A stretch of 64,000 nucleotides of DNA from Candidatus Binatia bacterium (GTDB lineage Bacteria > Eisenbacteria > RBG-16-71-46 > SZUA-252). A program made the translations under genes and the position numbers. The DNA lies in assembly GCA_035631035.1 (NCBI GenBank), contig DASQJL010000050.1, positions 1 to 64,000 on the forward strand. Reading direction: 5' to 3'. Positions 22,632 through 42,335 of this stretch are shown here, piece after piece. Every line of letters starts with the position of its first letter. Position 1 is the stretch's first letter. A model generated the notes under the pieces. The model was not told the origin of the DNA. It did not search any database and was given only the letters and a program-made list of their open reading frames with translations.

Positions 22632-25478
22632 TCAGCGCGCCATCAGGTTGCTGGGCGGCGCCGGGGGGGTCGTGTCGACGACGTTCGTCGTGTAGCGCAC
22701 CGCGAACTTCCAGCTCTTCGCGGGGTCGAGGCCGCTCACGGTCACGGTCTGCACCGAGCCGGGCGCGAGCGGGGCCGGGACCGTTCCCGGCGCGTCGCCG
22801 GCCGCGAACCACGCCACGTTGCTCGCCGGCGGGAACTGGTAGGCGCGCGTCGCCTGGTTGAACCCGAGCCAGGGAACGATCGTGCGGTCGGCCGCCTTGA
22901 TGCGGTAGCCGGTCGTGCCGGGGGGAACGGTCCAGGAGAGCTGGTAGGAGCCGCTGCCCACGCTGGTCGCGGCGACGCCGGGAACCGTGAACCACCCCGT
23001 GACCGGACGATACAGGTCGGTCTGCATCATCGCCTCGCTCGCGGGATCGCTGGGGGTTCGCACCGTGACGTACTGGATGTCGCCGACCAGGAGCTTGGCC
23101 GCGCGCGTCAGGTACTTGGCGTCGCCGGTCAGGTTGTAGGCCAGCGTGAGCGCCCGCGCGCTGGAGATCGGACGGAAGCCCTCGGACCAGTAGGGATTGG
23201 TGGCGTCGTTCACCTGGTCCAGGTAATAGGCGTAGACGTATCCGAACTGCGTGCTCCCGCTGCCGACGTCGAAGTAGAACTCGTTGTAGATGAAGTCGGC
23301 CAGCCCGAGCAGGTAGTCCTCCATCGCCTGTGCGCGCGGATCGTTCGCCTCGCGCATCAGGCGCAGCCCTTCCCACATCGCCTCGAAATGAATCTGCACC
23401 GTCATGAAGTCGGAGACCAGGCGCGGCGTGACGTAGCCGTTCCAGGACTGCCACATGTAGCCCCGGTCCAGGTTGCGTCCGGCGGGAAGGCCGCTGCCGG
23501 GCGTGTCCCGCGATGCGAGGGTCGCGGTCGTCATCGTGCTGAGGTCCGACCAGTAGCGCGGATCGCGCGTGATGTCCCAGAGGAGCGCGAAGTCGCGGTA
23601 GTAGCGCGACCACCCGCGCATGCCTCCGTCGCCGAAGGTCTGGAGCGGCTTGTAGTAGTAGGGCGTCACGCCGTCCGCCATGCCGTGCTTCCATTCGCCG
23701 TAGTCCAGGAACGCCTCGTGGTAGAGCTCGTTGCCGGTCATGTAGTAGGCGATCGGCACGCTGATCCAGTGGGGGTGCTCGAAGTCGAAGATCCGGCCGT
23801 TGAACGTCCCAAGGTTCACGCCGCTCCCCTCGTCGCCCGGGTCGATCTGGTTCGCCGTGTAGTCGAATCCGTCCGAGTGGCGCACGGCGGTGTCCGCCTT
23901 GTAGAGCGAGTTCCGCTCGCCCTCCGCCAGGAAGCCGCCGTTGCCGGTTCGGATCCAGTCGATCATGTCCACGAAAGCGAAGTCCATCTGGTTGCCGCCG
24001 CCGCCGGCGCCCCACGCCTTGTACCGGTAGAAGCCCGGGGTCAGGTTCGCCAGGGAGGGGCTGGTGCCGCCGTGGGCGGTGAACCAGCGCTGCTGGTCGT
24101 TCGCGGAGACCAGCTTCGTCTCGCCGTAGATGGCGCCGGCCGCGGAGTACTGCGCCATCGGCGCGCGGCCGGAGAGCGGGTACTGCATCTCGTAGAGCGC
24201 GGTGTTCCGGTTCGCCGGAGCCGTGGCGTGGAAGTCGAAGAAGAGCTCCCGCGTCTCGTAGGCGCCCCACGCGAACTTGATCGAGGTCTTGCTGTTCCGC
24301 TTGCTGAAGAGCTCGATCCGCGCGCTGCCATCGCCGGCCAGCTCGAATCCGGCCGGCCAGAGCGCGCTCATCCAGCGCATGCCGAGGGTGATGCCGCGTC
24401 CCGTCCCGTCCTCCAGCGAGGCCCATCCCAGGGCGTAGTCGGCGGCGTTGCCCGACAGCGCCTGGTAGATCGTGCCGCCGACCTTCCGGACCTCGACGCC
24501 GTTCTGCGCGAAGGTCGTCCCCGAGATCACCATCGGCGCGTTCGTGTAGGCGTTCTCCGGGATGCCGTCCTGCGTCGAGTAGGCCTGGTAGAGGTACATC
24601 GTCTCGCCCGAGGCGAGGGCGTCGGTTACGGTCCCGCGCGACGTCGCCGTCGTGAAGCGCAGGGAGGGTCCGGGGGAGAGCGGCACGACGACTTCGGCGC
24701 TCTTGAAGGCGAAGGCGGAGACGTTCGCGGCCCTGGCGTTTCGGAGCGAGACCCACGCCCGCGCGTACGACTTGCCCTTGTAAAAGTGGAGCCGGACCAG
24801 GTACTCGCAGAGCCTCGTGCCCGCGCCGTTCTTCAGGGTGCCGGTCGCGCGCACCACCGCGCGCACGGGTCCGTTCTCCTCGATCGTGACCGAGGCGCCG
24901 GCATCGTTCGCCGAGGTGAAGCGCCCGCCCGAGGGATCGATCGCCACGACGCCCTCGCCGCCGGCCGTGACGAGGGAGGTGGCGCCGACGGAGACCTGAT
25001 CGAAGAGCCGGAAGGGGCTCTTTCGGATGGTGAAGGTCGCCGCTCCGGTCGCGATCTGGATCGACGTGCCCTGATCGGTCGCGAGATCGGACCCGCCGAA
25101 ATTCCCGGCGCCGTTCGTGAGCGAGACCGAGGCGCTCGATCCTCCGGCGGCGAGGTCGCTCTGGTAGTCGACGAGGACCCAGCGGATCGCCCCGCTCGGG
25201 TAGCGCGCGAGCTCCCGGAACTGGCCCGCGGCGGCGCCGGTGAGCCCCAGCTGGGACACGCTCGTGATCCCCTGCGCTTCCTCGAGGGGGATCCCCACGC
25301 TGACGGGACCCGCCGTGCGCGCGAGACCCGCGGCGCCCGCCACGAGCGCTTCCTGAACCGTGATCGGAACGGGGAGCGCGGCGAGCGCGGGGAACACAGC
25401 CACGGAGGTCAGGAAGAGGAACGCGGCCAGCGCGGTGGCGCCCGCGGCGACCGCGCGTCTACCGGATCCGGAGGTCAC
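22632..25478 (-). CDS. Large secreted protein resembling the PcRGLX/YetA rhamnogalacturonan lyase family
   Basis: A 948-residue protein with a signal peptide (about 1-34). The first domain has VSVGIPLEEA and ELARYPSGAIRWVLVDYQSDLAAGG, close to the RIFT-barrel start of PcRGLX/YetA-like proteins. A mostly helical middle region contains FDFEHPHWISVPIAYYMTGNELYHEAF and RGWSRYYRDFALLWDI, compatible with an (alpha/alpha) toroid. The C-terminal 150 residues look like a Fn3-type sandwich and end DTTPPAPPSNLMAR, which reads like the opening of a further Fn3 domain. A role in trimming or turnover of acidic polysaccharide is inferred. The start overlaps the end of the Kelch gene by 20 bases. Confidence 0.65.
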   Translation of the reverse strand: MTSGSGRRAVAAGATALAAFLFLTSVAVFPALAALPVPITVQEALVAGAAGLARTAGPVSVGIPLEEAQGITSVSQLGLTGAAAGQFRELARYPSGAIRWVLVDYQSDLAAGGSSASVSLTNGAGNFGGSDLATDQGTSIQIATGAATFTIRKSPFRLFDQVSVGATSLVTAGGEGVVAIDPSGGRFTSANDAGASVTIEENGPVRAVVRATGTLKNGAGTRLCEYLVRLHFYKGKSYARAWVSLRNARAANVSAFAFKSAEVVVPLSPGPSLRFTTATSRGTVTDALASGETMYLYQAYSTQDGIPENAYTNAPMVISGTTFAQNGVEVRKVGGTIYQALSGNAADYALGWASLEDGTGRGITLGMRWMSALWPAGFELAGDGSARIELFSKRNSKTSIKFAWGAYETRELFFDFHATAPANRNTALYEMQYPLSGRAPMAQYSAAGAIYGETKLVSANDQQRWFTAHGGTSPSLANLTPGFYRYKAWGAGGGGNQMDFAFVDMIDWIRTGNGGFLAEGERNSLYKADTAVRHSDGFDYTANQIDPGDEGSGVNLGTFNGRIFDFEHPHWISVPIAYYMTGNELYHEAFLDYGEWKHGMADGVTPYYYKPLQTFGDGGMRGWSRYYRDFALLWDITRDPRYWSDLSTMTTATLASRDTPGSGLPAGRNLDRGYMWQSWNGYVTPRLVSDFMTVQIHFEAMWEGLRLMREANDPRAQAMEDYLLGLADFIYNEFYFDVGSGSTQFGYVYAYYLDQVNDATNPYWSEGFRPISSARALTLAYNLTGDAKYLTRAAKLLVGDIQYVTVRTPSDPASEAMMQTDLYRPVTGWFTVPGVAATSVGSGSYQLSWTVPPGTTGYRIKAADRTIVPWLGFNQATRAYQFPPASNVAWFAAGDAPGTVPAPLAPGSVQTVTVSGLDPAKSWKFAVRYTTNVVDTTPPAPPSNLMAR

Positions 25479-26625
25479 TCACGTCCCCGGGCGCGATGGC
25501 GTCGCTGCTCGATGCGTAGCGGTAGAGCCAGAAGTCTCCGTTCATGTGGAGGATGAAGACGTCGTTGTCCGGATCGTAGATGAGATCCTCGTTGCTCATG
25601 TCCAGGTTCGGCGGGGAGGTGGCGGGGAAGACCTGCTGCCACTGCCGCGTCGAGGGCCGGTAGAGCCACGTGTCGGTGAGCGGCGTCGTGTTGTTCGTGC
25701 CGCCCCAGAGCATGACGAGATCGTGCTTGGAGTCGTACGCCATGGACGCGAAGCGGCGCACCGGCGGCGGGCTGTTCTGGGGCGACACCTGCGACCAGAC
25801 GCGGGCCGATGCGTCGAAGGCCCACATCTCGTTCCCGGGATTGGGGTAGACGGTGCCTCCGCCGAACACGTAGGAGACCCGCCGCATGGAATCGAAGACC
25901 ATCGACTGCGACATCCGGGCTGCCGGCGTGCTGGCCGTGGTGGCCTGCTCCCACAGCTCGGTGTTCACGTCGAAGAGCCAGGCCGAGGTTCCGCTGCCGT
26001 AGGAGGACGTGGCGCCGCCGAACACGACGAAACGGTGCGTGTTCGGATCGTACGTCGAGGTCTGCTCGAAGACGTTGAAGGGGTGCGTCGTTCCGGTCGC
26101 CTGGTGCCAGGCCTTCGTCGCGAAGCTGTAGATCCAGGTGTCGCCGACGTAGTCGTTCGGGATGCTGCTGTTCGCGCCGCCCCACATCACGACCTCGTTC
26201 TTCTCGGGGACGAACGCGATGCAGGCATAGGAATGGCGGTCGAACGGCGTGGGATCGGTCGTGTTGGCCGGGAGGGCGGTCGTGATCCCGTTGATCCGTG
26301 CCCAGTTGCTCACCTTCTCCAGGGAGATCCGGTTGGCGAGCGGATCGTACGTCCAGAGCGCGTTCGCGTAGATGTTGTAGGGGCGCGACGCGTCCATGTA
26401 GCCGTCGAAGAGGATCAACCGTTTGCCGAGCGGGTCGTACATCATGCGGTTCCAGCCGCGCGCCTGGAACTGCCCCGAGAACCCGGAGAGCCCGACCTGG
26501 CTGGGGGTCGGCTGCTTCACCCAGATATTGGATGGAATGGAGATGGCGGCGGCCGCGTCGCTCGAAACGATCAGGAGCGCGGCCGCGAAGAGCGCGGCGA
26601 ACGTTCGCTGCAGCCACAGGAGCAC
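25459..26625 (-). CDS. Secreted Kelch-repeat beta-propeller protein
   Basis: A 388-residue protein with a signal peptide (about 1-27, ending DAAAA). About six Kelch-like repeats follow, recognisable by units such as NEVVMWGGANS, HRFVVFGGATSSYGSG, RVSYVFGGGTVYPNPGNEMWAFD and DLVMLWGGTNNTTPLTDTWLY, so a six-bladed propeller is likely. No catalytic residue is evident; binding of carbohydrate or protein is the usual role. The C terminus, DAIAPGDVSDLRIR, resembles the linker that opens an Fn3 domain, although none follows. GTG start. A good sigma-54 element lies about 110 bases upstream, and the gene probably forms an operon with the lyase-like gene. Confidence 0.82.
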   Translation of the reverse strand: MLLWLQRTFAALFAAALLIVSSDAAAAISIPSNIWVKQPTPSQVGLSGFSGQFQARGWNRMMYDPLGKRLILFDGYMDASRPYNIYANALWTYDPLANRISLEKVSNWARINGITTALPANTTDPTPFDRHSYACIAFVPEKNEVVMWGGANSSIPNDYVGDTWIYSFATKAWHQATGTTHPFNVFEQTSTYDPNTHRFVVFGGATSSYGSGTSAWLFDVNTELWEQATTASTPAARMSQSMVFDSMRRVSYVFGGGTVYPNPGNEMWAFDASARVWSQVSPQNSPPPVRRFASMAYDSKHDLVMLWGGTNNTTPLTDTWLYRPSTRQWQQVFPATSPPNLDMSNEDLIYDPDNDVFILHMNGDFWLYRYASSSDAIAPGDVSDLRIR

Positions 26626-26735: not shown

Positions 26736-26752
26736 AAGCAGCTATCGTACCA
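26736..26752 (-). promoter_or_regulatory. Candidate sigma-54 promoter for the Kelch gene
   Basis: Read on the minus strand, TGGTACGATAGCTGCTT has GG and GC separated by exactly 10 bases and matches the -24/-12 consensus TGGCACGnnnnTTGCTT at 11 of 13 defined positions. The start site would lie near 26726, giving a leader of about 100 bases. A PrsR-like sigma-54 activator is encoded at 40902. Confidence 0.6.
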
Positions 26753-26870
26753 TCGTTCGGCAGCGCTGCGTCGCGGGATCAGCGTGGCCCCGCATTCGAT
26801 TGGGCCCGACCCATATGGCATCCGGGACGCGCCGCAAACCGCAACTCGCGACCGCAGCTACGGCGCGAGG

Positions 26871-26893
26871 TCTTGCACGCCCCGCGTGCGAGA
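26871..26893. promoter_or_regulatory. Palindrome between divergent sigma-54 elements, candidate activator site
   Basis: TCTTGCACGC and GCGTGCGAGA form a 10-bp inverted repeat with one mismatch around a CCC spacer. Its centre is about 130 bases from the -24 element of the Kelch promoter and 175 bases from that of the Fn3 promoter, in the range used by enhancer-binding proteins. Function is inferred from position and symmetry only. Confidence 0.4.
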
Positions 26894-27056
26894 CGCCACC
26901 GGCCGTGGCGGCGGCTTGGGGGCCGGATCCAGCCCAAGACGACGCGACTCGCTCCGAATCACGTACCGATCCGTACTCCGAGCGCCCGAACGGGGTTCGG
27001 CGGGGACATGGCACCGGGCGGGCGATTTGCCTCATAATGGCTATCTTGCCTTCCGA

Positions 27057-27072
27057 TGGTACGAACGCGGCA
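27057..27072 (+). promoter_or_regulatory. Candidate sigma-54 promoter for the first Fn3 gene
   Basis: TGGTACGAACGCGGCA has GG-N10-GC spacing and shares CGATGGTACGA with the divergent Kelch promoter. The -12 part (CGGC) departs from TTGC. The start would be near 27083, with a 40-base leader and a GAGGAGA ribosome site before the ATG at 27123. A second TGGCAC at 27009 also has the spacing (GG at 27010, GC at 27022) but a poorer -12 element. Confidence 0.5.
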
Positions 27073-27122
27073 GGGGTTGCCGGATGGGTCGACCGGCGGC
27101 CCGCGACCAGAGGAGACAGCAC

Positions 27123-28133
27123 ATGAGGGACCGGACATCGAGAATGCGTCGCGCGGTCGCCCTCGCGCTGGCCGCGGGCGCCATCCTGGGCGCGTCCGCC
27201 TCCCGCGCGCAGAGCAACGGCTACAACTCCCTCACGGCGTTCTGGACGGCTCCCGGCGACGACGGCACCACAGGGCAGGTGAGCGCCTACGAGCTCTTCT
27301 ATGACACGCGTCCGCCCGGAGCCGACATCGGGGCTTGGTGGAACGCCGTTCCGTTCTCGCAGCGGGTGAGCCTCATCCCGCCCCTCGCGGTCGCGGGGCA
27401 GCCCGATTCGGCGCGCATCGCCGGTCTCAGCCAGGGCACCACCTATTATTTCGTGATCGTGGCGCGCGACGAGGCCGCGAACGTTTCCGGATATTCCAAC
27501 GTCGCCTCGGGGACCACGCTCTCGTGCGGAGCGCCCACCACGGCGCCCTCCTCGTTCGCCTCCGAGGTCGATTCGGCCGGAGTCCTGGTCACGTGGGACG
27601 CGGCCACCGATCCCGCGGCGCTCTCCCTTCACCTCTATCGCGCGACCGGTTCGGGGCCCTCGTGGACGATGCTCCAATCGCTCCCACCGTCGTCCACCTC
27701 CTGGCGCGATCCCCAGACCGCGGCGGGAACGACCTATCGCTACCGGGCCACGTGGGCCGGTCCCGACATCCAGGGCGTCACCTGCGAGGGGCCCTACTCC
27801 GCCCAGGCGGTCGTCACGACCCCCTCGCGCGCCGGGACGGCCGCGATGGCGGGGAGCGGGCAGATCCACGCGTACCCCAATCCCGCCTCCGACCACGTCC
27901 AGGTCGCCCTCGACGTCACGGCGCCGTCGCCGCTCGCCGCGCGAATCCGGGTCTACGACCTGAACGGGCATTGGCTCGCCACGGTCGCCGAGGGGACGTT
28001 CCCGCCGGGGCGCAGCGTCGTCACGTGGGACCGTCTGGGGCGGAGCGGCTTGAAGCTGGCCCCGGGCTACTACGAACTCCTTGGGACGGTGGGGAACAGC
28101 CGCGTGCGCGAGCGCCTCGTCCTACTCCCCTAG
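27123..28133 (+). CDS. Secreted Fn3 protein with FlgD-like C-terminal sorting domain
   Basis: A 336-residue protein with a signal peptide (about 1-29, cleavage near SRAQ). An Fn3 domain (about 35-130) contains FWTAPGDDGTTGQVSAYELFY and GTTYYFVIVARDEAANVSGYSNVA. A second Fn3-like domain (about 135-225) follows. The last 90 residues (from AYPNPASDHVQV, with RVYDLNGHW and PGYYELLG) form a FlgD-like Ig domain, the type of C-terminal module used for sorting and surface attachment in many FCB bacteria. No PEP-CTERM motif is present although the exosortase gene starts directly after its stop. The ATG has a good GAGGAGA ribosome site. Its role may be an adhesin or matrix protein. Confidence 0.85.
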   Translation: MRDRTSRMRRAVALALAAGAILGASASRAQSNGYNSLTAFWTAPGDDGTTGQVSAYELFYDTRPPGADIGAWWNAVPFSQRVSLIPPLAVAGQPDSARIAGLSQGTTYYFVIVARDEAANVSGYSNVASGTTLSCGAPTTAPSSFASEVDSAGVLVTWDAATDPAALSLHLYRATGSGPSWTMLQSLPPSSTSWRDPQTAAGTTYRYRATWAGPDIQGVTCEGPYSAQAVVTTPSRAGTAAMAGSGQIHAYPNPASDHVQVALDVTAPSPLAARIRVYDLNGHWLATVAEGTFPPGRSVVTWDRLGRSGLKLAPGYYELLGTVGNSRVRERLVLLP

Positions 28134-29699
28134 GTGGATTCCCTTCGAGCCAAGTCCGGCGGCCTGGCCCCGTCGCTCGACCTCCCGCGACCGCGGCGCT
28201 GGCCGCTCGCCGCCGCGCTGTTCGCCTTGGGCCTCGCGGCGATGGCAGCGGCCTATCCCGCGACCCTCGGGTCGTTCTACGAGGTCTGGCGCGGGTCCGA
28301 CACCTTCACGCACTGCTTCTTCGTGATCCCGATCACGGCGTGGCTCGTCTGGCGCCGGCGCGCCGACCTCCGCGCGCTCGCCCCGGAGCCGTTCTGGCCG
28401 GGGCTCCTCCTCATCGCGGGCGCGGGCGCGCTCTGGCTGGTGGCCCATGTCGCGGGGGTGCTCTTCTACGAGCAGCTCGCGTTCGCCTTGATGATCCCGG
28501 CGCTCGTGATCACGCTCTTCGGGCTGCGCGTGACGCGCACCCTCACCTTCCCGCTCGCGTTCTTCTTCTTCGTGGTCCCGTTCGGCGAGGCGCTCCATCC
28601 CGCGCTCATGAGCTTCACGGCCCGGGCCACGGTGTTCGGCCTGCGCCTCACCGGCGTCCCGGTGGCGGTGGAGGGGATGTACCTCACGACGCCCACAGGG
28701 AACTGGCAGGTGGTGGAGGCCTGCAGCGGCCTCCGGTTCCTCATCTCGATGTTCACGCTCGGCTGCCTCTTCGCCTACCTGCACTTCCAGCGCGCCCGAA
28801 ACCGCATCCTCTTCGGCTCCCTCGCACTCGTCGCGCCGATTCTGGCGAACGGGCTCCGCGCCTACGTGATGGTGCTGACCGGATACCTGAGCCGGCGCGA
28901 GATCGGAGCCGGCTTCGACCACTTCGCGATCGGCTGGACGGTGTTCGCGATCGCGATGGCGATCTTCTTCTTCCTGGGGAGCCGCTGGCGCGAGACGCCG
29001 GTTCCCGTGGACGACGCCGCCGCGCCCCGGCCCGCGACGGCGCGCTCGCCACGCCGGCTCGCGGTGACGGCCGCGGCGGCCGTGGCGCTCGCGCTCGCGC
29101 CCGCGGCGTACGCGGCCTGGATCCGGCCGCCCGTCGAATCCGCACCCGTCGCGCTCCACGCCCCCGCTCCGGCCGGAGGCTGGACGCCGCTCCGGATCCC
29201 TCCCTCCGCCTGGGCGCCCGAGTTCAAGGGCACCGACGCCGCGGTGCGCGCCGTCTTCGAGAAGAACGGAAGCCTGGTCGACTGCTACATCGGGTTCTAC
29301 CGGAATCAATCGCAGGGGCGGGAGCTGATCCACTACGCGAACGTGATCGCCCCGCGGGGGGAATCGGTCTGGCACGTCGTGACGCAGCGCGACACCACGA
29401 TCGCCGCCGAAGGGGATGCGGTCCCGGTGCACGAGACGCTCATGCGCTCTCCCGGGCTCCGCTACGGCGTGTGGCACTGGTACTGGCTGCCCGACGAATT
29501 CACGGGGAGCGCCACGCGCGCCAAGCTCCTCCAGGCGCGCTCGAGGCTGCTTCGCCGGCCGGACCACGCGGCGGTCGTGATTCTCTCGGCGCCGTACGTG
29601 GACAACCCCGCGCGCGCCCGCGCGCGGCTCGAGGACTTCACGCGCTCCATGCTTCCCTCGATCCACCGCTCCCTGCGCGAGGCCGACGCCTCCCACTAG
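28134..29699 (+). CDS. xrtA: Exosortase A with fused EpsI domain
   Basis: A 521-residue fusion. Residues about 22-285 are the exosortase, with about eight membrane helices and the conserved triad Cys197 (EACSGLR), Arg242 (ANGLRAY) and His263 (GFDHFAIGW). Residues about 300-515 are the periplasmic EpsI/DUF3485 domain (GSLVDCYIGFYRNQSQGRELIHYAN, VWHWYWLPDEF). The fusion is the usual form of exosortase A. The enzyme cleaves PEP-CTERM tails at the membrane, a transpeptidase-like step linked to EPS production. GTG start directly abuts the stop of the Fn3 gene. An inverted repeat (29701-29728) begins right after its stop. No PEP-CTERM protein was found in the window. Confidence 0.93.
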   Translation: MDSLRAKSGGLAPSLDLPRPRRWPLAAALFALGLAAMAAAYPATLGSFYEVWRGSDTFTHCFFVIPITAWLVWRRRADLRALAPEPFWPGLLLIAGAGALWLVAHVAGVLFYEQLAFALMIPALVITLFGLRVTRTLTFPLAFFFFVVPFGEALHPALMSFTARATVFGLRLTGVPVAVEGMYLTTPTGNWQVVEACSGLRFLISMFTLGCLFAYLHFQRARNRILFGSLALVAPILANGLRAYVMVLTGYLSRREIGAGFDHFAIGWTVFAIAMAIFFFLGSRWRETPVPVDDAAAPRPATARSPRRLAVTAAAAVALALAPAAYAAWIRPPVESAPVALHAPAPAGGWTPLRIPPSAWAPEFKGTDAAVRAVFEKNGSLVDCYIGFYRNQSQGRELIHYANVIAPRGESVWHVVTQRDTTIAAEGDAVPVHETLMRSPGLRYGVWHWYWLPDEFTGSATRAKLLQARSRLLRRPDHAAVVILSAPYVDNPARARARLEDFTRSMLPSIHRSLREADASH

Positions 29700-29700
29700 G

Positions 29701-29728
29701 TTGCATCCTGAAATGCCTTCAGGTGCAA
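29701..29728. promoter_or_regulatory. Inverted repeat after xrtA, candidate activator site or attenuator
   Basis: TTGCATCCTGAA and TTCAGGTGCAA pair over 11 bp with one bulged base around a 5-base loop. Its centre is about 118 bases upstream of the sigma-54 -24 element at 29833, a typical enhancer distance. It lacks a following T-run, so it is a poor intrinsic terminator. Part of it (ATCCTGAAATGCCT) recurs with one change at 35771-35784. Confidence 0.4.
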
Positions 29729-29832
29729 AACCCCGGGTGCATCCTGCACGGCGCGCCCTGCCGGCATCGCGCTTCGCAGCCATGAGCCCACGTACCCTCG
29801 CGTGCCCGCCGTGCACAACGCAAGACGTCTCC

Positions 29833-29848
29833 TGGCACCGAACCTGCA
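29833..29848 (+). promoter_or_regulatory. Candidate sigma-54 promoter for the second Fn3 gene
   Basis: TGGCACCGAACCTGCA has a perfect -24 hexamer TGGCAC and a -12 CTGCA, with GG-N10-GC spacing. The start site would be near 29859. It is the closest match of the plus-strand sigma-54 candidates in the window. Confidence 0.6.
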
Positions 29849-30047
29849 CGGGCCCCGGACACGCGGGGGCATCCAATCGCATATCCATGCTCAGAGCAAA
29901 CCGTTCGAAAGGACGGGGCGCAGAGTCACGGGGCTTCCGATCGCGGGGTCTTTCCCTCGATCCACGCCGGCCGGGCCGCCATGGATCCGAAGCGGGTCGT
30001 GGCGGGCTCCGACATCCGGCGGGGGCCGTCGAGGAGGGGGACAACGC

Positions 30048-30938
30048 ATGCCTGACATCGAATCGACGACCGAATCCGGCGCCGCGAGAACCGCGAGGGT
30101 CCCCCTGTGGGTCCTCATCGCGGTCTTTCTCGCGGGAGTCGCGCTGCTCTCGGTGATCCAGCCGGCCGCCGCGCACGCCCAGACCGCCGCCGACTCGACG
30201 GTGCTCCTGAACTGGACCGCGCCCGGCGACGACGGCACGGTGGGACGCGCCACCACCTACGACATCCGCTACCGGACGGTCGCGATCGCCGGCACCGACA
30301 CGACGACGTGGTGGAACGCCGCGACCCAGGTGACCGGCGAGCCCGTGCCCGGCACGGCGGGGGCGTCCGACTCGATGCGCGTCCGCGGCCTCTCGCCGCT
30401 CACCACCTACTACTTCATGATTCGCGCCGCCGACGAGGTGCCGAACTGGTCGGGCTACTCCAACGTCGCGGTCCGCTCCACCAGCGGCGACGCGACGGCG
30501 CCGGCCACGATCGCAGACCTCACGGTCACGGGCACCACCGGGACCTCGGTCTCGGTGCGCTGGACGGCGCCGGGCGACGACGGCACGACCGGCACCGCGG
30601 CGAGCTACGACGTGCGCTACTCCACCTCGGCCATCACGAGCTCCAACTGGAGCAGCGCGCTGCAGGCGACCGGCGAGCCGGCTCCGGCGGCGGCGGGGAC
30701 CTCCCAGTCCTTCACGATCAGCGGCCTGAGCGGCAGCCGCACGTACTACGTCGCCATCAAGACGACCGACGACGCCGGCAACGTCTCGGTGCTCTCGAAC
30801 GTGGTGAACGGCACGACGTCGGACACCGTGGCTCCGGCCCCGGTGCGCGACCTCTCGCGTCTCGACGGATCGGGCCTCTCCTCGGAGATGCTGGCGCTCG
30901 CCGACGCAGACTCGAGCGGCGCCGCGGACCTCCCGTGA
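30048..30938 (+). CDS. Secreted/membrane-anchored protein with two Fn3 domains
   Basis: A 296-residue protein. A charged N terminus is followed by a hydrophobic segment (about 19-38: VPLWVLIAVFLAGVALLSVI) that is a signal peptide or anchor. Two Fn3 domains follow (about 48-145 and 155-265), each opening with a WTAPGDDGT motif shared with the proteins encoded at 27123 and 30941. A short tail opens like a third Fn3 domain (DTVAPAPVRDL) but ends within 30 residues. Unlike the other two Fn3 proteins it has no FlgD-like tail. The ATG is preceded by GAGGAGGGGG. Its stop overlaps an alternative start of the next gene, so the two are probably co-expressed. Confidence 0.82.
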   Translation: MPDIESTTESGAARTARVPLWVLIAVFLAGVALLSVIQPAAAHAQTAADSTVLLNWTAPGDDGTVGRATTYDIRYRTVAIAGTDTTTWWNAATQVTGEPVPGTAGASDSMRVRGLSPLTTYYFMIRAADEVPNWSGYSNVAVRSTSGDATAPATIADLTVTGTTGTSVSVRWTAPGDDGTTGTAASYDVRYSTSAITSSNWSSALQATGEPAPAAAGTSQSFTISGLSGSRTYYVAIKTTDDAGNVSVLSNVVNGTTSDTVAPAPVRDLSRLDGSGLSSEMLALADADSSGAADLP

Positions 30939-30940
30939 CC

Positions 30941-31942
30941 ATGCACACGATTCCGGGCCGGGGCCGCCGCGCGCACGCGGCGGTCCCTTCGCTCGCAGCG
31001 GCGATCCTGTTCGGCGCGTCGGCGCTCGGCGCGTCCTTCGGCGCGCCGGCGTCGGCACGCGCGGACTCGATCACGCTCACCTGGACGGCGACCGGCGACG
31101 ACGGATCGGCCGGGCGCGCGACGGCGTACGAGCTGCGCTTCTCGGAGCAGCCGGTGTCCGGAGTGGACACGACCTCCTGGTGGAACAGCGCCTCGACCGC
31201 CGGCGTCCTGCCGCCACCCGCCACCTCGGGAACGCGCGAGAGCTACGTGATGTCGGGACTCGCGACCGGCTCGACCTATCACTTCGTGCTGCGGGTCGCC
31301 GACGAGGCGGGCAACTGGTCGGGCTTCTCGAACGTGCGCGCGCGCCAGGCCGGCACCACCGGCGGCACGCTCGCGACGCCCGAGTCGTTCACGGCGTCGG
31401 CGGTGAGCGGCGGGGTGGACCTGACCTGGACCGAGCCGGCATCGGGCTCGGGCAGCGGCTATCACCTGTACCGCCGCACGAGCGCGGGACCCGACACGCT
31501 TCTCACGTCGCTCCCGGTGGGCGTCGTGGCGTGGTGCGACTCCACGGCGGCGGGGGGCTCGTCCTACGAGTACCGCCTCGCCACCTACCAGGGCTCGGGC
31601 GAGGGCGTTCCGGCCGTCGCCTCGATCGCGGTGCCGAGCGATCGGCTGGCGAACGCCACGACCGGGATCCACGGCTATCCCAACCCGGCCCGGGGCCGCG
31701 TGACCCTTCGCTTTGCAGGCGGCACGAAGGAGGGTGCGCCAGGGCGGGTGCGCCTGGTCATCTACGATCTCACCGGCCACATGGTCTGCCAGCTGGTGGA
31801 CCGCGTGCTCCCGGCGGGGGAGCAGGCGATCGAGTGGCCCTGCCGTTCCGACGCCGGGAACGCGGTCGCGCCCGGCCTCTACAATGCCATCCTCGACGCC
31901 CCCCAGGGACGTACCGTTACGCGCATCGCCGTCGTCCCCTGA
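30941..31942 (+). CDS. Secreted Fn3 protein with FlgD-like C-terminal domain
   Basis: A 333-residue protein with a signal peptide (about 1-40, ending ASARAD). One Fn3 domain (about 40-135) opens with WTATGDDGSAGRATAYELRF; a second, more divergent one (about 140-235) follows. The C terminus (from GYPNPARGRVTLRF, with LVIYDLTGHM and APGLYNAIL) is a FlgD-like Ig module like that of the protein at 27123. I chose the ATG; an upstream in-frame GTG at 30935 would overlap the preceding stop by four bases and is equally possible. Probable paralogue of the first Fn3 gene, with an unknown binding partner. Confidence 0.82.
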   Translation: MHTIPGRGRRAHAAVPSLAAAILFGASALGASFGAPASARADSITLTWTATGDDGSAGRATAYELRFSEQPVSGVDTTSWWNSASTAGVLPPPATSGTRESYVMSGLATGSTYHFVLRVADEAGNWSGFSNVRARQAGTTGGTLATPESFTASAVSGGVDLTWTEPASGSGSGYHLYRRTSAGPDTLLTSLPVGVVAWCDSTAAGGSSYEYRLATYQGSGEGVPAVASIAVPSDRLANATTGIHGYPNPARGRVTLRFAGGTKEGAPGRVRLVIYDLTGHMVCQLVDRVLPAGEQAIEWPCRSDAGNAVAPGLYNAILDAPQGRTVTRIAVVP

Positions 31943-32024
31943 CGACCTTCGCTCTTCCGCGCAGGCCCTCCGGTCCGTATCCTCTCTGGTCGCGCGCACC
32001 ATCCCGCGCGCGGGGAGGAGCCCC

Positions 32025-32936
32025 TTGTCCAATCGTCCGCCGGTTGGCGGAAACGGCGCCCACGGAGGCGCCGAGCCGGCGCTCGCCTTGAGCGTCGACG
32101 TGGAAGACTATTACCAGGTGCAGGCGTTCGCGGGGATCGTGCCGCGCGACGCCTGGAGCAGCTATCCCTCCCGCGTCGTGGCGAACACGCGCCGCCTGCT
32201 CGATCTGTTCGACGAATCGGGGGCGCGGGGGACCTTCTTCGTGCTCGGCTGGGTCGCCCGGGCGGAGCCCGGGCTGGTGCGCGAGATCGCCGCGCGCGGG
32301 CACGAGGTGGCCTCGCACGGGATGGACCACCGGATGCTGACCGAGCTCTCGCGGAGCGAGTTCCTGGCGCAGGCGCGCGAGTCGCGCGCGCTCCTCGAGG
32401 ACCTGGCGCAGGCGCCGGTGCTCGGCTATCGCGCGCCCAGCTACAGCGTGGGGAAGGGCACCCTCTGGGCGATCGGCGCCCTCGCCGAGGCGGGGTACGC
32501 CTACGACTCCAGCGTCTACCCGATCCGCCGCCGCCGCTACGGCTACCCCGAGGGGCCGACCCGCCCCACCCGATTCGAGGCGGAGGGCGTCACCCTGGTG
32601 GAGTTTCCGCTTCCGACGGTCCCGATCGGACCGGTGCGCTTCCCGGTGCTCGCGGGCGCGTATCTCCGGCTCCTGCCGCGGTGGGTCTCGGCGCGGGCGC
32701 TCGACTACCACCTGGCCCGGGGCGTGCCGCTCATCCTGAACGTCCATCCCTGGGAGGTCGACCCCGACCAGCCTAGCGTCGGTCCGGCCCGTCGTCCCTG
32801 GACCCACTACGCGGGCCTCCACAAGACGGCCGGCGTGCTCCGGGCCGCGCTGGCCCGGGCGCGCTTCCGCACGGCGGCGGCATGCCTCCGCGATCTGGGC
32901 CTCCTCCCGGCCGCGCCTGCCGGAGCGATTCGATGA
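32025..32936 (+). CDS. Polysaccharide deacetylase of the XrtA system (TIGR03006-like)
   Basis: A 303-residue NodB-family deacetylase. The first motif is VDVEDYY (24-30), the form typical of exosortase-associated deacetylases rather than TFDDG; the second is SHGMDH (97-102), and RAPSYS and LNVHPWE also match. It probably de-N-acetylates the exopolysaccharide. The start is a TTG at 32025 with a strong GGGGAGGAG site 4 bases upstream; reading frame further upstream only shadows the Fn3 gene. Its last codons overlap the ATG of the sensor gene (ATGA). The gene at 15324 is a second deacetylase with a different active-site form. Confidence 0.9.
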   Translation: MSNRPPVGGNGAHGGAEPALALSVDVEDYYQVQAFAGIVPRDAWSSYPSRVVANTRRLLDLFDESGARGTFFVLGWVARAEPGLVREIAARGHEVASHGMDHRMLTELSRSEFLAQARESRALLEDLAQAPVLGYRAPSYSVGKGTLWAIGALAEAGYAYDSSVYPIRRRRYGYPEGPTRPTRFEAEGVTLVEFPLPTVPIGPVRFPVLAGAYLRLLPRWVSARALDYHLARGVPLILNVHPWEVDPDQPSVGPARRPWTHYAGLHKTAGVLRAALARARFRTAAACLRDLGLLPAAPAGAIR

Positions 32937-34369
32937 GCATGGATCTGCTGCTCCTCGGCGCCGGAGGCATGATCGCCCTGATCGCCGCGGGAATCGTGGC
33001 CATCCTCAGTCCGGGAGGCATCGTCTCGCTGATCGCCGCCGGAGCGCTGGCCATGCTCGGAGTCCTCGAGTTCTGCTTCGCGCGCGCGGTGTTCGATCTG
33101 GCGGCGACCGGCCGCACCGAGTGGTTCGTCAACTCGCTCGCGCTCTCGCTGCCGGTGTCCGCTCTCTGGGTGCTACTGGCGGCGACGCTCGGCCGCACGC
33201 GGGGCTCGCGGGGCATCGGCGCCTGGCGTTTCTACCTGCTCTTCCAGGCGCTGCTCGCGGCGGGAGTGGCGACGTACGCCTTCTTCCGCGTCGATCGCGC
33301 GCCGGAAGCGCCGGGCGAGGTCTTCCACCTGCACGGCGTCGACTGGGCGATCCTCGCCGCCATCCTCCTCAACCTGATCCTGCTGGCGGCCAAGTTCGAG
33401 GCGACGCACCTGTCCCTGCCGCCGCGCCGGCGGGAGACGTTCCGTCCCGCGCTCCTCGGGGTGCTCGGCTGCTCGGGACTCCTTTCCTACCTGATCTTCT
33501 CGATGCTGGCGACCGGCCGCGTCGACGTGGGGGACATCGGAGCGAGCGCCGCACCGGCTTCGCTCCTCTCGTTCCTCCTCGCCGCCTCGCTGATCCGCGG
33601 CCGGATCGGCGAGGCGCGCGCGCCCGAAGACCGGCTCCCCGCGACGGCCACGACCTCGCTCCTGATCGCCGTGGGCTACGTGACGTGGACCGCGATTCTC
33701 CTGTGGCTCACCCGGTCGGCGGGGATGCGACTTGCGGAAGGGCTGCTCTGGATCACGGTCGGGGGGGTCGTCGTCGGCGTGACCGCGCTCACCGTGTCGA
33801 ACCGGCTCCGCCGCAAGCTCGACCTCTTCCTCGATCCCGTGTGGTTCGAGCCGCGCGCCGTGCGCCGGATGGCGGCCAAGGGCGCCGACGCGCCGCTGGC
33901 GAGCGCCGCGTCGCTGGAGGATCTCTGCCGGCTCATCCCGGAGAATGCGCGCGCGCTGGCCGACGTCGACCCGGTCACCCTCTTCCTCGCCGATCCCGCC
34001 GAGCGCTGCTTCCGAGCGGTGGGGAGCACGATCGCGCCGGGGCCGGGTGTGGTGATCCCCGACCGCGAGCCGCTTCCGATGGAGCTGCGCCGCGCGCGGC
34101 GCCCGATCCGGCTGACCGGCCGCTCCGACGATCTCGAATACGTCGGCATCTACGTCGAGAACGCCGAACAGATCGCGGCCTGCTCGGCCGTCTGCGCCGT
34201 GCCGATCCTGGGGGACGAGGGGCTGATGGGATTCCTGCTCTGCGGCTCGCGCGGCACGGCCCGGCAGCTGCACGGGGAAGAGCTGGTTCTCCTGAATCTC
34301 GTCTCGCGCGACTACGCCGAGCGGCTCGAGCGGCTGCAGCGGGAGACGGCGCGCAGCCGCCCGCTGTGA
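32933..34369 (+). CDS. PrsK-like membrane sensor lacking the kinase domain
   Basis: A 478-residue protein. Residues about 1-295 contain eight or nine membrane helices, as in the N-terminal half of the PEP-CTERM histidine kinase PrsK. A linker (RRKLDLFLDPVWF) leads to a GAF-like domain (about 315-470: SLEDLCRLIPENARALADVDPVTLFLAD, VPILGDEGLMGFLLCG). It stops where PrsK would continue into its dimerisation and ATPase domains: no His phospho-acceptor motif and no N/G1/G2 boxes exist here, and none follow in other frames. Translationally coupled to the deacetylase. A soluble histidine kinase is encoded 4.6 kb downstream, so sensing and phosphotransfer may be split between two proteins. Confidence 0.75.
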   Translation: MSMDLLLLGAGGMIALIAAGIVAILSPGGIVSLIAAGALAMLGVLEFCFARAVFDLAATGRTEWFVNSLALSLPVSALWVLLAATLGRTRGSRGIGAWRFYLLFQALLAAGVATYAFFRVDRAPEAPGEVFHLHGVDWAILAAILLNLILLAAKFEATHLSLPPRRRETFRPALLGVLGCSGLLSYLIFSMLATGRVDVGDIGASAAPASLLSFLLAASLIRGRIGEARAPEDRLPATATTSLLIAVGYVTWTAILLWLTRSAGMRLAEGLLWITVGGVVVGVTALTVSNRLRRKLDLFLDPVWFEPRAVRRMAAKGADAPLASAASLEDLCRLIPENARALADVDPVTLFLADPAERCFRAVGSTIAPGPGVVIPDREPLPMELRRARRPIRLTGRSDDLEYVGIYVENAEQIAACSAVCAVPILGDEGLMGFLLCGSRGTARQLHGEELVLLNLVSRDYAERLERLQRETARSRPL

Positions 34370-34434
34370 CGCCCGCGAAGAAGTCCACCGCCGCGAGCGG
34401 CGCGGCCCGCTCCGCCGCGACACCGGGTCGGTCC

Positions 34435-34463
34435 TTGACAGGCTCGCGGGCCGCCCGTACCGT
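34435..34463 (+). promoter_or_regulatory. Sigma-70-type promoter, nearly leaderless
   Basis: A perfect -35 TTGACA, a 17-base spacer and a TACCGT -10 element. The -10 box ends 9 bases before the ATG at 34473, so transcription would start about three bases before the start codon and the gene would be essentially leaderless. Confidence 0.6.
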
Positions 34464-34472
34464 CTCGTGGCC

Positions 34473-35573
34473 ATGACCCCACACCGGTTCCTGCCATCGC
34501 TCGGCCACGCCGCGCCGCTGCTCGCCGCGCTGCTGCTCGCCGCGGCCGCGAGCGCGCAACCGCTGGGCGAAGCGCCCTCGGCCGCCGAGCCGGGGCCGCC
34601 CATCCTCACCGTGCTTTCCAGCCCGCCCAACGTGTCCTTGTCGCTCTCGGGGCCGGCCGAGGTGTACGGGCGCACGCCGATGGACCTGCCGTCGTCGGTG
34701 GTGGGACGCTTCTCCGTCCTCGCCGAGGGCGGGGGCGTCGCGAAGACGCAGGGCGTGTTCGCCTTCAGCCCGCGGGGCGGGGCGCCGTACTGCCTCTCCG
34801 AGCCTCCCGGCATGAGCGCCGGGCTTCTCATTCGCTCGCTCAACTATCCGGGCGTTCCGGCCATGACCGTGAAGCGCGCCCTCCGCGGAGCCCCCCTCGC
34901 GATCGCCGAGACCGGCGCGATCGCGGAGGCGCTGCGCGCCCATCTTCGCTACCGCGACCGCCTCGACGAGCCGGGAACGCTGTCGGGGTTGCGCGCGGTC
35001 GAGGAGCGCCGCGTGCGCAACGGGTGGATCATCTACGGCGCCTCCGTCTGGGGCATCAGCGCCATCGATTACTGGATCCGCCCGCGATTCACGGTCCAGG
35101 AGGCGACCCCGTCACGGCTCTCGCTCGTCATCCCGACGCTCGACCGCCAGGAGGTGGTCACGCGCTCGCTCATCATTCCGGGAGCGGGCCAGGAGTTCGC
35201 GAACCACAGCACCCGCGGCGCCCTCTGGCTGGCGGGCGTGCTCGCGACCGGCGCCGGGTACACCGCCGCTCAGGCGGTCGTCAATCACAAGCGCGCCGAC
35301 ATCGCCTACAACCAGATCCTCGCCGATTCCAGCGGTCCCGGCGATCAGCTGCGCTACCTGCGCGAGGTCGAGGTCCTCAGGAGCGACCTCAAGTCCGCGC
35401 AGGATCTCCGCCGCGGATTCGCCTACGCCACGCTCGCGGTGTACGCCGCGAACATCGTCGACGCGCTGGTGCTCTCGATCGGACCGCCCGCCGCCAAGAC
35501 GCCGGCGCGCGTATCGGCGACGTTCCCGATCGGGCCCCGAAGCGCCGGTTTCGCCCTGACCTACCGCTACTGA
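34473..35573 (+). CDS. Secreted PEGA/DUF5683-like envelope protein
   Basis: A 366-residue protein with a signal peptide (about 1-27, ending ASAQ). The next 70 residues resemble a PEGA beta-sandwich (ILTVLSSPPNVSLSLSGPAEVYGRTPMDLP). The C-terminal half has SLIIPGAGQEFANHSTRGALWLAGVLATGAGY, the signature of DUF5683-type proteins, with two hydrophobic segments, and a final strand-rich end FALTYRY that suits outer-membrane insertion. The function is unknown; PEGA domains often bind surface polysaccharide or peptidoglycan. I take the ATG at 34473 rather than the GTG two codons earlier because the promoter places the transcript start between them. Confidence 0.7.
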   Translation: MTPHRFLPSLGHAAPLLAALLLAAAASAQPLGEAPSAAEPGPPILTVLSSPPNVSLSLSGPAEVYGRTPMDLPSSVVGRFSVLAEGGGVAKTQGVFAFSPRGGAPYCLSEPPGMSAGLLIRSLNYPGVPAMTVKRALRGAPLAIAETGAIAEALRAHLRYRDRLDEPGTLSGLRAVEERRVRNGWIIYGASVWGISAIDYWIRPRFTVQEATPSRLSLVIPTLDRQEVVTRSLIIPGAGQEFANHSTRGALWLAGVLATGAGYTAAQAVVNHKRADIAYNQILADSSGPGDQLRYLREVEVLRSDLKSAQDLRRGFAYATLAVYAANIVDALVLSIGPPAAKTPARVSATFPIGPRSAGFALTYRY

Positions 35574-35640
35574 CGCCGCCGCCGCGCGCGTACTTCGCGA
35601 AACGCGGCGTGCGGAATACGGCGTCCCGGCACCACGCCAC

Positions 35641-35659
35641 GATTGCGTTTTGCGCGATC
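35641..35659. promoter_or_regulatory. Palindrome upstream of sigma-54 element, candidate activator site
   Basis: GATTGCG and CGCGATC pair at 6 of 7 positions around TTTTG, about 85 bases upstream of the -24 element at 35735. The core TGCGTTTTGCGCGATCGCG recurs at 35715 with four changes, and a weaker copy occurs at 35610. Function is inferred. Confidence 0.35.
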
Positions 35660-35734
35660 GCGCCGGCCCCGACCCACCCCTCGAAACCGCATACGCTTCC
35701 ACGGTTTCCGAGCGTGCGTAATGCGCGATTCCGC

Positions 35735-35750
35735 TGGCATGTTCCGTGCT
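35735..35750 (+). promoter_or_regulatory. Candidate sigma-54 promoter for the PorV-SPOR gene
   Basis: TGGCATGTTCCGTGCT has GG-N10-GC spacing and a TGGCA start. Transcription would begin near 35761, giving a leader of about 85 bases that includes ATCCTCAAATGCCT (35771-35784), a 13-of-14 match to part of the inverted repeat after xrtA. Confidence 0.55.
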
Positions 35751-35845: not shown

Positions 35846-37339
35846 ATGTCCAGGCTGCCTCACGCCTCCTCGTGCTGCGCCTCCACGCCGGTTCGCCTCG
35901 CCCTGATCACGACCGCCTGCGTCCTCTCTGCGTACCTGTTCGTACGCCCCGCGTCCGCGGATGTTTCCGTCGGAGCCTCCTCGGGGGACTTTCTTTCGTT
36001 CGAGGTGGGCGGACGTTCCGCGGGCATGGCGGGCGCGCACACCGGCGTCGCCACGGGGGTGACGGCGCAGTTCTGGAATCCCGCCGGGCTCGCGACGCTG
36101 ACGCAGCCGCAGGTCGGCGCGATGCACGCGAACTGGCTCCAGGACCTCAGCTATGAGTGGCTCGGCGTGGCGAAGCCGATGGGGATCGGCGTCGGCTCGC
36201 TCAGCGTTGCGTATTTCCACACTCCGGGGATCCAGGGGGTGGATGAGTTCGACAATCCCACGGGCGACTTCCGCGTCTACGACCTCGCGGTGACCGCGGG
36301 CATCGCGCGATCCCTGGCCCGCGGGTTCTCGATCGGCGCGAACGCGAAGATGGTCCGCCAGAGTCTCGGCACGATCTCGGCCACGGCGCCCGCCGTCGAC
36401 TTCGGCGCGCGCGCCACGGTCGCCGGCGCCAGCATCGGCGCCGCCGTTCAGAATCTCGGCCCGGGCCTCTCCTTCGGCGGCTCGGCCTATCCGCTGCCGC
36501 GGGAGATCAAGCTGGGCATGGGCCGCTCCTTCTGGAACGACCGCATCCAGCTCGCGGCGGACTACAACATGCCCAGCCACTACTACGACGACCTGCGCGT
36601 GGGGACGGAACTCCGCGCGCATCCGAACGTCTCGCTGCGCGTGGGGTATCGCCACGAATTCGGCACGCCGGAGGATCCGGCCAACGGACTCTCGTACGGG
36701 CTCGGGCTCCACTTCCACCAGCTCGAGGTGGACTACGCCATGACGCCCAGCAACGCCTTCGACAACGTGCACCGGCTCTCGTTCGGCTACAGCTTCGGCT
36801 CGGGCTCGGAGGAGAAGAAGCCGGAGAAGCCCAAGCCCGAGGTCGAGCCTCCGCCGCCGCCCGCGCAGCCGGGCCCGAAGGTGATCGCGTCGGCTCCGGA
36901 GACGAAGGCCCCGTCGCCCAAGCCTCAGGCGAGCGTGCAGGCGCCGAAGGCCATCGCGGCGGCGCCGGCAGCGCCGACGTCCAAGCCTGCGACCGAGACG
37001 GTGGCCCAGGCGGCGCCGAAGCCGGACCAGGCCCTTGCGACCGCGTCGGCTCCGGCCGCCCCGTCCGAGCCGGCGCCGAGCAAGCCGGCCAAGGCCAAGG
37101 ACCTCGAATACCTGGTGATCCTGCCCGGCTACTGGTCGAAGGAAAGCGCTGAGGCGGAGCTCAAGGCGCTCTCGCTGCTCGGATTCCGGATCAAGGACGC
37201 GCAGATCGAGAAGAGCCCCGGATCCGGCTACCAGGTCCGGCTGGCGCGCACCCGTTCGAAGTCGAACGCCGACGACATGGCCGCGTCGCTCTCGCGCATG
37301 TCCTTCCGGGCGTCCGTCGAGGTCGCCTCCGCGCCGTAA
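35846..37339 (+). CDS. PorV/PorQ-type outer-membrane barrel fused to a SPOR domain
   Basis: A 497-residue protein with a signal peptide (about 1-38, ending ASA-DV). Residues about 45-320 match the PorV/PorQ (UPF0164) barrel family: GGRSAGMAGAHTGVATGVTAQFWNPAGLA is its hallmark N terminus, and alternating strands end at HRLSFGYSFG. A linker of about 95 residues rich in Pro, Ala and Lys follows (about 322-417). The last 80 residues form a SPOR-like domain (LEYLVILPGYWSKESAEAELKAL). SPOR domains bind denuded peptidoglycan, so the fusion could anchor the outer membrane to the wall or to division sites. A strong terminator follows. Confidence 0.82.
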   Translation: MSRLPHASSCCASTPVRLALITTACVLSAYLFVRPASADVSVGASSGDFLSFEVGGRSAGMAGAHTGVATGVTAQFWNPAGLATLTQPQVGAMHANWLQDLSYEWLGVAKPMGIGVGSLSVAYFHTPGIQGVDEFDNPTGDFRVYDLAVTAGIARSLARGFSIGANAKMVRQSLGTISATAPAVDFGARATVAGASIGAAVQNLGPGLSFGGSAYPLPREIKLGMGRSFWNDRIQLAADYNMPSHYYDDLRVGTELRAHPNVSLRVGYRHEFGTPEDPANGLSYGLGLHFHQLEVDYAMTPSNAFDNVHRLSFGYSFGSGSEEKKPEKPKPEVEPPPPPAQPGPKVIASAPETKAPSPKPQASVQAPKAIAAAPAAPTSKPATETVAQAAPKPDQALATASAPAAPSEPAPSKPAKAKDLEYLVILPGYWSKESAEAELKALSLLGFRIKDAQIEKSPGSGYQVRLARTRSKSNADDMAASLSRMSFRASVEVASAP

Positions 37340-37441: not shown

Positions 37442-37670
37442 TGACAGCGATCGGTGGGGGGCCGGTCCGCGGCGGGTCCACACTCGCGCGCGGGCCCTCG
37501 CCTGACATCCATCGGTCCCGCCGTCCCTGGTGCCGGTGCACGGGAATGGCGGAGCCGCCGGATCCGCGTCGCTCCTGATTCGCACGGGGGCTTGCGCGCG
37601 CCCGGCTGTCGCCCGGCGTTCCACGGCGAGGAACGGCCCCTTGAGCATGATGATCCTCCCATCCACGATG

Positions 37671-37677
37671 AAGGAGG
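37671..37677 (+). promoter_or_regulatory. Shine-Dalgarno site that fixes the sugar transferase start
   Basis: AAGGAGG lies 8 bases before GTG 37686 and overlaps or follows the alternative ATG codons, so it supports initiation at the GTG only. Confidence 0.7.
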
Positions 37678-37685
37678 GGACGGCT

Positions 37686-40901: not shown

Positions 40902-42321
<1,420 letters not shown>

Positions 42322-42335
<14 letters not shown>

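Follow-up and report, generated by a model that had tools for sequence, protein, structure and literature searches.

Predicted sigma-54 promoters and a cyclic-dinucleotide riboswitch at an Fn3/PorV surface-protein locus of an Eisenbacteria genome

Do the surface-protein genes that lie beside an exosortase gene in an uncultured bacterium form a sigma-54 regulon, and if so, which activator and which signals control it? The question is raised by a 64,000-nucleotide stretch (hereafter the window) from the draft genome of a Candidatus Binatia bacterium assigned to the Eisenbacteria (GCA_035631035.1; 3.35 Mb, 97% complete, coded G000), corresponding to the first 64 kb of the 77.5-kb contig DASQJL010000050.1 (C50). 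A first-pass annotation had pointed to four elements with exact GG-N10-GC spacing, upstream of a Kelch gene, two genes for Fn3 proteins (Fn3-1 and Fn3-2) and a PorV-SPOR gene (porV), and had read them as sigma-54 promoters of an exosortase locus that also encodes a PrsR-like activator at position 40902. All four elements are indeed found at these places and with this spacing. Taking all evidence together, we consider the best explanation, and a likely one, to be a sigma-54-dependent Fn3/PorV surface-protein unit with a dyad-binding activator and a riboswitch for a cyclic dinucleotide in the fn3-2 leader, the last of which, lying between promoter and coding sequence, had been missed.

Sigma-54 (-24/-12) promoters are recognised by GG and GC dinucleotides at a distance of 10 nt in a TGGCAC-N5-TTGCW-like context. 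The GG-N10-GC spacing by itself is no evidence of a promoter, because it is trivial in DNA of 71% GC, the two strands of the window together containing 1,748 matches. The more specific word TGGYAYN6TGCW occurs three times, compared with 0.14 expected, a count reached in 0 of 100 dinucleotide shuffles. The matches correspond to the Kelch, Fn3-2 and porV elements, which lie within 9 kb and are each located 5' of a gene on the correct strand. When the window was scored with a sigma-54 position matrix, which was built from general knowledge with no curated site set behind its scores, the Kelch, porV and Fn3-2 sites ranked first, second and third among approximately 128,000 positions and the Fn3-1 site fifth. 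A strict consensus scan revealed no sigma-70 alternatives between 26.6 and 36 kb. A whole-genome scan for the word yielded 31 matches in 3.35 Mb versus 68 for the reversed control; thus, the word is not enriched genome-wide, and what is unusual is the clustering of three matches within 9 kb. The search for rpoN suggested in the first-pass annotation was positive, the gene being encoded on contig C82 (Sigma54_DBD E=6e-65).

Comparison among nine genomes of the family (among them G000-G003 and G005-G008), complemented by further genomes of the class (G013, G016, G019, G037), allowed us to assess the four sites separately. The Fn3-2 site is kept 5' of all eight fn3-2 copies, present in seven family genomes, and the porV site in 8/8 family genomes carrying a PorV-SPOR gene, including genomes that lack exosortase A (XrtA). 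Of these 16 conserved sites, 14 exceed 12 bits, a level that the background reaches at 0.033 sites per kb and strand. At the syntenic locus of G002, whose XrtA is 52% identical to that of the window, the orthologue of the Fn3-2 site is TGGCACCGATCCTGCC and that of the porV site TGGCATGTAACCTGCT, the latter being the best of 20 kb, and there is no site comparable to that of Fn3-1 and none at the position of the divergent gene. Given that rpoN is present and that the Fn3-2 and porV sites occupy orthologous positions across the family, sigma-54 control of the Fn3/PorV set is very likely, and both promoters are very likely real. The Kelch promoter is plausible by its sequence; the G002 locus has a beta-helix protein gene in this place and no Kelch gene. 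A promoter at Fn3-1 is not supported, since a Markov shuffle yields about five sites of its score per window, i.e. chance level. It does share the 11-mer CGATGGTACGA with the Kelch site, as had been noted, and this 11-mer has exactly two occurrences in the window, one per strand. Of the proposed Fn3/Kelch/PorV regulon, the Fn3-2 and PorV parts are therefore upheld by conservation, Kelch keeps a provisional place and Fn3-1 is not supported.

Is there a common operator? In 10 of the 16 fn3-2 and porV promoters, a dyad, CGTGC-N5-GCACG, starts 22-25 nt 5' of the -24 element with 7-10 of its 10 positions matched. In random DNA (20,000 draws), nine matches were obtained in 0.04% and ten in 0.0% of cases, and none of 30 other sigma-54-like sites of G000 has a dyad above 7 at that offset (mean 4.67, null 4.9). 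Furthermore, an operator matrix trained on G002, G003, G005 and G007 only placed the window's two porV copies at ranks 1 and 2 and its two Fn3-2 copies at ranks 4 and 8. Because the number of dyads in the whole window is not above chance (7 found versus 10 expected), only their fixed position is informative. This fixed offset in fn3-2 and porV promoters, not seen at the 30 other sites, makes the dyad a good candidate for the binding site of one specific activator. No dyad was found at the Kelch and Fn3-1 sites. The dyad superseded a first enhancer pattern, CGTGCRNAAYGMR, which was about 7-fold over the reversed control in five genomes. An inverted repeat with strong arms, GTCTTGCACGC-CCC-GCGTGCGAGAC (26870-26894), lies in the interval separating the divergently oriented Kelch and Fn3-1 genes. 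We considered it as a shared enhancer of the two genes; its half-sites are in the opposite sense to those of the dyad.

The activator is most likely the response regulator encoded at 40902, together with the neighbouring kinase. The regulator has the AAA+ and Fis domains ascribed to it in the first-pass annotation and could in principle activate sigma-54 promoters. It has an orthologue in all nine family genomes (80-86% identical), five of which lack XrtA, and wherever porV was found beside it in the family, the order porV - sugar transferase - kinase - regulator is kept. It may nevertheless be that the promoters are real and are served by another activator, with the 40902 regulator responsible for, e.g., a general envelope response. 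We regard this as a serious possibility, albeit the less probable one: candidates abound, as the genome encodes at least 19 enhancer-binding proteins, orthologues of the regulator extend far past the Fn3 unit across most of the class (53-61% identity), and its gene sits between the sugar transferase and kinase genes on one side and lptE/leuS on the other. Against it stand the linkage from PorV to the regulator in the family and the location of the porV promoter, which is closer upstream than any other conserved one.

Elsewhere in G000, a sigma-54-like site, TGGCATGGAAGTTGCT, is found 5' of pilM (L036:2096-2111, minus strand, contig C123; gene identified by TIGR01175, over cut-off), with a perfect dyad 110 nt upstream, and another, TGGCACGTCTCGTGCT, 5' of an Arf/MglA-like GTPase gene (L033:2691-2706, plus strand, contig C112), where a perfect dyad precedes the site by 135 nt. 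It is possible that pilM is a further member of the regulon, and the targets of the activator may include pili and polarity genes. Further good sigma-54-like sites are located 5' of OmpA/TSP3, Hsp20, DUF892 and Lon genes (L032, L046, L050 and L031), which suggests that a sigma-54 regulon of envelope and stress genes extends further.

The second layer of control would lie in the RNA. The fn3-2 leader contains a GEMM-I (c-di-GMP-I, RF01051) aptamer that starts 37 nt past the promoter, ahead of the fn3-2 start codon, and is the only RF01051 match in the genome. An aptamer above the gathering score is present at the same place in G000, G001, G003, G006 and G007. In a second family (G013, G016, G019), there are two aptamers per genome, one 5' of a homologous Fn3 pair and a second one (L253 in G013, L254 in G016, L252 in G019; all with A at nucleotide 20) followed in G016 and G019 by an MFS-transporter-like gene. 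All six aptamers of this family have a sigma-54 site about 41-56 nt upstream, and the Fn3-linked aptamers of both families start 33-43 nt after theirs, so promoter, riboswitch and Fn3 pair co-occur in two families of the class. The P1 helix, which lies outside the Rfam RF01051 model, shows compensatory changes between the families (CCATG/CATGG versus CCTTG/CAAGG). The G006 aptamer shares its 3' side with a 16-bp hairpin that has TTTTTT directly behind it, and G001 is similar; this layout is likely that of a terminator relieved by ligand, i.e. ON logic.

Which dinucleotide would be sensed? We mapped nucleotide 20, just before the first P2 pair, based on the helix limits of a cGAMP-riboswitch structure (PMC6274999). 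It is A in the window aptamer, by covariance-model and 8-sequence alignments, and in all ten other sigma-54-linked aptamers (11 in total); L251, the only aptamer of G037, has G there and no sigma-54 site. Aptamers of Geobacter with A20 select 3',3'-cyclic GMP-AMP (3',3'-cGAMP), and an A20G change switches selection to cyclic di-GMP (c-di-GMP) (PMC6456294). Following the residue criteria for Hypr GGDEF enzymes from the same study, we identified on contig C48 a GGDEF protein with Ser at the guanine-contact position (S348 equivalent), a GGDEF motif and a non-Arg residue, Tyr, at the 304 position (Y304 equivalent). With Tyr or Phe at the first position, this signature recurs in 28 further class genomes and holds for 29 of the 30 class sequences compared. 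In 13 class genomes, some 6 kb separate the Hypr GGDEF gene from the 40902 regulator's orthologue, on the same strand. A20 and the class-wide Hypr GGDEF enzyme thus indicate 3',3'-cGAMP, and cGAMP is probably the ligand. That the ligand is instead c-di-GMP, or both dinucleotides, seems to us rather unlikely. The Rfam family is named after c-di-GMP, the genome encodes additional GGDEF proteins, among them one whose selectivity position has the canonical Asp, and A20 is a single determinant, but A20 in every promoter-linked aptamer, G20 in the class member without a sigma-54 site and the conserved Hypr signature all speak for cGAMP. We give about even chances to the proposal that Eisenbacteria have a pathway dedicated to 3',3'-cGAMP and connected in series to a sigma-54 two-component switch: because each A20 aptamer is found directly behind a sigma-54 promoter, an Fn3 surface-protein operon would be made only when activator and cGAMP are both present.

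From promoter conservation, the dyad, the riboswitch, A20, the Hypr residues and regulator conservation, all of which were computed, we infer transcription itself, the identity of the activator, the ligand and the sign of the switch as follows. RpoN would read the promoters at 29833 (fn3-2) and 35735 (porV), which would require an enhancer-binding activator, most likely the NtrC-type regulator with its adjoining kinase. This activator would probably bind the dyads just 5' of the -24 element and, at fn3-2, also about 75 nt further up. Transcripts of fn3-2 would begin about 25 nt before the riboswitch, and fn3-2, fn3-3 and the genes behind them would pass a two-component gate at initiation and a cyclic-dinucleotide gate in the leader, with 3',3'-cGAMP as predicted ligand and the riboswitch acting as an ON switch. 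Certain surface proteins would thus appear to be gated twice, by sigma-54 initiation and by an RNA switch.

Several observations weigh against this scheme. The dyad is tied to the 40902 regulator by neighbourhood alone in a genome with so many enhancer-binding proteins, and it is weak or absent at porV of G001, G002, G006 and G008 and at both fn3-2 copies of G001. The promoter occurs without a riboswitch at G002, G005 and the second fn3-2 copy of G001. The hairpin in the window lacks the T-run that makes the platforms of G006 and G001 clear terminators, and the output mechanism of the window riboswitch is uncertain for this reason. Regarding the ligand, G019 has A20 aptamers and no Hypr orthologue at E<=1e-45, none was found in G007 and G008 (incomplete), and most genomes with a Hypr enzyme have no riboswitch.

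What, then, is the role of the exosortase? As the first-pass annotation has it, the four promoters would form one XrtA/PrsK-PrsR regulon, and the PrsR-like activator would act on Fn3, Kelch and PorV genes where such regulons mainly have PEP-CTERM genes. There is some basis for this: XrtA, EpsI and the XrtA-type deacetylase score above the cut-offs of their models, the succession of sugar transferase, kinase and NtrC-type regulator genes is similar to epsB2-prsK-prsR in Aquincola (PMC9850573), and PEP-CTERM genes are present in the genome, with one in the syntenic cluster of G002. We nevertheless find it improbable. The regulator reaches 382 bits against the PrsR model TIGR02915 (cut-off 502.6), less than against the ntrC model (442 bits, cut-off 558.6), and is only seventh by PrsR score among 19 matches in its own genome, while against the PrsK model TIGR02916 (cut-off 300) the kinase obtains 91.8 and the GAF protein at 32882-34369, perhaps a split or decayed PrsK, 26.6. 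The regulator is encoded in 9/9 family genomes and XrtA in 4/9. In the sigma-54 cis-element of PEP-CTERM genes, motif 1 ends in TTTACA about 63 nt upstream (PMC1569441); TTTACA, the end alone having been scanned, was not found up to 150 nt from any of the four sites, and the two PEP-CTERM genes of G000 lack a strong sigma-54 site. We therefore rejected the 40902 regulator as PrsR, on model score and on distribution.

XrtA was likewise rejected as the organiser of the unit, because relatives without it retain the same promoters, genes and regulator, and the description as an exosortase locus is not supported. Indeed, in G007 XrtA is on a separate contig, and the cluster Fn3 - PEP-CTERM - DUF5683 - PorV - kinase - regulator is intact. 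We find it better to describe the region as an Fn3/PorV sigma-54 module, commoner in the group than XrtA, with XrtA alongside as an accessory. A PEP-CTERM gene is located 5' of DUF5683 and porV in G002 (L039:9404-10186), and likewise in G005 and G007; it is not at that place in the window. Finally, that GC-rich sequence produced all four elements by chance, as the abundance of GG-N10-GC and the genome-wide word counts might suggest, is hardly conceivable in view of the conservation at orthologous positions (8/8 and 8/8) and the near-constant distance between promoter and riboswitch, although chance is a viable reading for the Fn3-1 site and could also hold for the Kelch site.

Table 1. Features of the Fn3/PorV locus and associated elements; positions refer to the window unless a contig is given.
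Feature	Position	Strand	Evidence and remarks
Kelch beta-propeller protein gene	25459..26625	-	GTG start; PF24681 E=5.3e-32, PF13418 E=1.7e-23
Candidate sigma-54 promoter of Kelch gene	26737..26752	-	TGGTACGATAGCTGCT; matrix 15.3, window best; TGGYAYN6TGCW match
Weak candidate sigma-54 site 5' of Fn3-1/xrtA	27057..27072	+	TGGTACGAACGCGGCA; matrix 11.2 bits
Fn3-1, Fn3 protein with FlgD/Por_Secre-like tail	27123..28133	+	fn3 E=4e-4, FlgD_ig E=5.5e-5, Por_Secre_tail E=0.0035; xrtA directly 3'
xrtA, exosortase A fused to EpsI domain	28134..29699	+	TIGR03109 303 bits (cut-off 208), TIGR02914 130 (cut-off 42.8)
Candidate distal operator dyad of Fn3-2	29736..29750	+	GGTGC-ATCCT-GCACG, 9/10; 97 nt 5' of -24 element
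Candidate proximal operator dyad of Fn3-2	29810..29824	+	CGTGC-ACAAC-GCAAG, 9/10; 23 nt 5' of -24, family-wide offset
Predicted sigma-54 promoter of fn3-2	29833..29848 (GC at 29846-29847)	+	TGGCACCGAACCTGCA; orthologous conservation
GEMM-I (RF01051) aptamer, A at nucleotide 20	29885..29983	+	49.4 bits (gathering score 35), E=1.2e-6
Candidate expression platform, GC-rich hairpin over aptamer 3' side	29970..30015 (limits approximate)	+	RNA folds; no T-run
Fn3-2 gene	30048..30938	+	Pfam fn3 E=7.4e-17; orthologues in 7/9 family genomes
Fn3-3 gene	30941..31942	+	Open frame, Fn3-like, Por/FlgD-like tail; 35% identical to Fn3-2
XrtA-system polysaccharide deacetylase	31734..32936 (true start probably past 31942)	+	TIGR03006 289 bits (cut-off 276.2)
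PrsK-N-terminal-like GAF protein, no kinase domain	32882..34369	+	Weak TIGR02916 match, positions 31-461 of 679, 26.6 bits; GAF E=6.4e-6
DUF5683 protein, upstream neighbour of porV	34467..35573	+	PF18935 E=8.5e-8
Candidate proximal operator dyad of porV	35713..35727	+	CGTGC-GTAAT-GCGCG, 9/10; ranked first by matrix from other genomes only
Predicted sigma-54 promoter of porV-SPOR	35735..35750 (GC at 35748-35749)	+	TGGCATGTTCCGTGCT; orthologous conservation
PorV family outer-membrane protein, C-terminal SPOR-like region	35846..37339	+	NF033709 (PorV/PorQ) 165.7 bits (cut-off 90)
Sugar-phosphate transferase near EpsB_2, EPS_sugtrans	37530..38396	+	PF02397 E=6.4e-62; below cut-off for TIGR03025 (274.7, cut-off 295.6) and TIGR03013 (248.3, cut-off 393.4)
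PAS histidine kinase, AtoS/ZraS type	39014..40888	+	TIGR02916 91.8 bits (cut-off 300)
NtrC-family response regulator	40902..42335	+	PF00158 E=3.1e-71 (AAA+), PF00072 E=1.1e-26 (receiver), PF02954 E=1.3e-9 (Fis)
GAF-GGDEF protein with Hypr residue signature	C48:3822-4847 (L263)	-	NYR...GHLRGS...GGDEF

The unit, whose parts are listed in Table 1, shares features with three known systems. As in the PEP-CTERM/EpsH sigma-54 system with PrsK-PrsR (Haft 2006, PMC1569441; pepA of Aquincola, PMC9850573), a -24/-12 promoter (TGGCAC...CTGC) stands 5' of exported-protein genes, with an upstream activator motif and an NtrC-type regulator beside a kinase and an EpsB-like transferase. Here, however, PEP-CTERM is missing from the predicted targets, namely the Fn3, PorV and perhaps Kelch genes, the regulator falls below the PrsR model, the candidate operator is CGTGC-N5-GCACG instead of the TTTACA motif, XrtA is not required and one leader carries a riboswitch. 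The GEMM-I fold, A20, the surface-function genes and the likely anti-terminator ON logic in relatives are reminiscent of the GEMM-Ib/3',3'-cGAMP riboswitches of Geobacter, and the Tyr304/Ser348/GGDEF equivalents of its Hypr GGDEF GacA (both PMC6456294). In contrast to Geobacter, the phylum is a different one, there is a single aptamer in the genome, which directly follows a sigma-54 promoter and precedes an Fn3 pair, and cGAMP binding is a prediction. Finally, porV scores above the cut-off of the PorV/PorQ model, and Fn3-1 and Fn3-3 have Por/FlgD-like tails, as in type IX secretion, although unlike PorV of that system the protein has a long C-terminal extension. The SPOR-like label of this extension stems from the first-pass annotation, and Pfam SPOR gave no match in the protein. 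Among the papers searched, none was found to join Eisenbacteria with riboswitches or exosortases.

On a practical matter, these results caution against reading regulators that adjoin xrtA as PrsR. The promoter set, the candidate operator, the candidate activator and the riboswitch provide entry points to regulation in an uncultured phylum, and in vitro work on them needs no cultivation. Furthermore, if the ligand is cGAMP, the Hypr/GEMM-Ib pathway, known mainly from Geobacter, would be extended, and sigma-54 control of initiation would be found in a fixed pairing with a cyclic-dinucleotide riboswitch.

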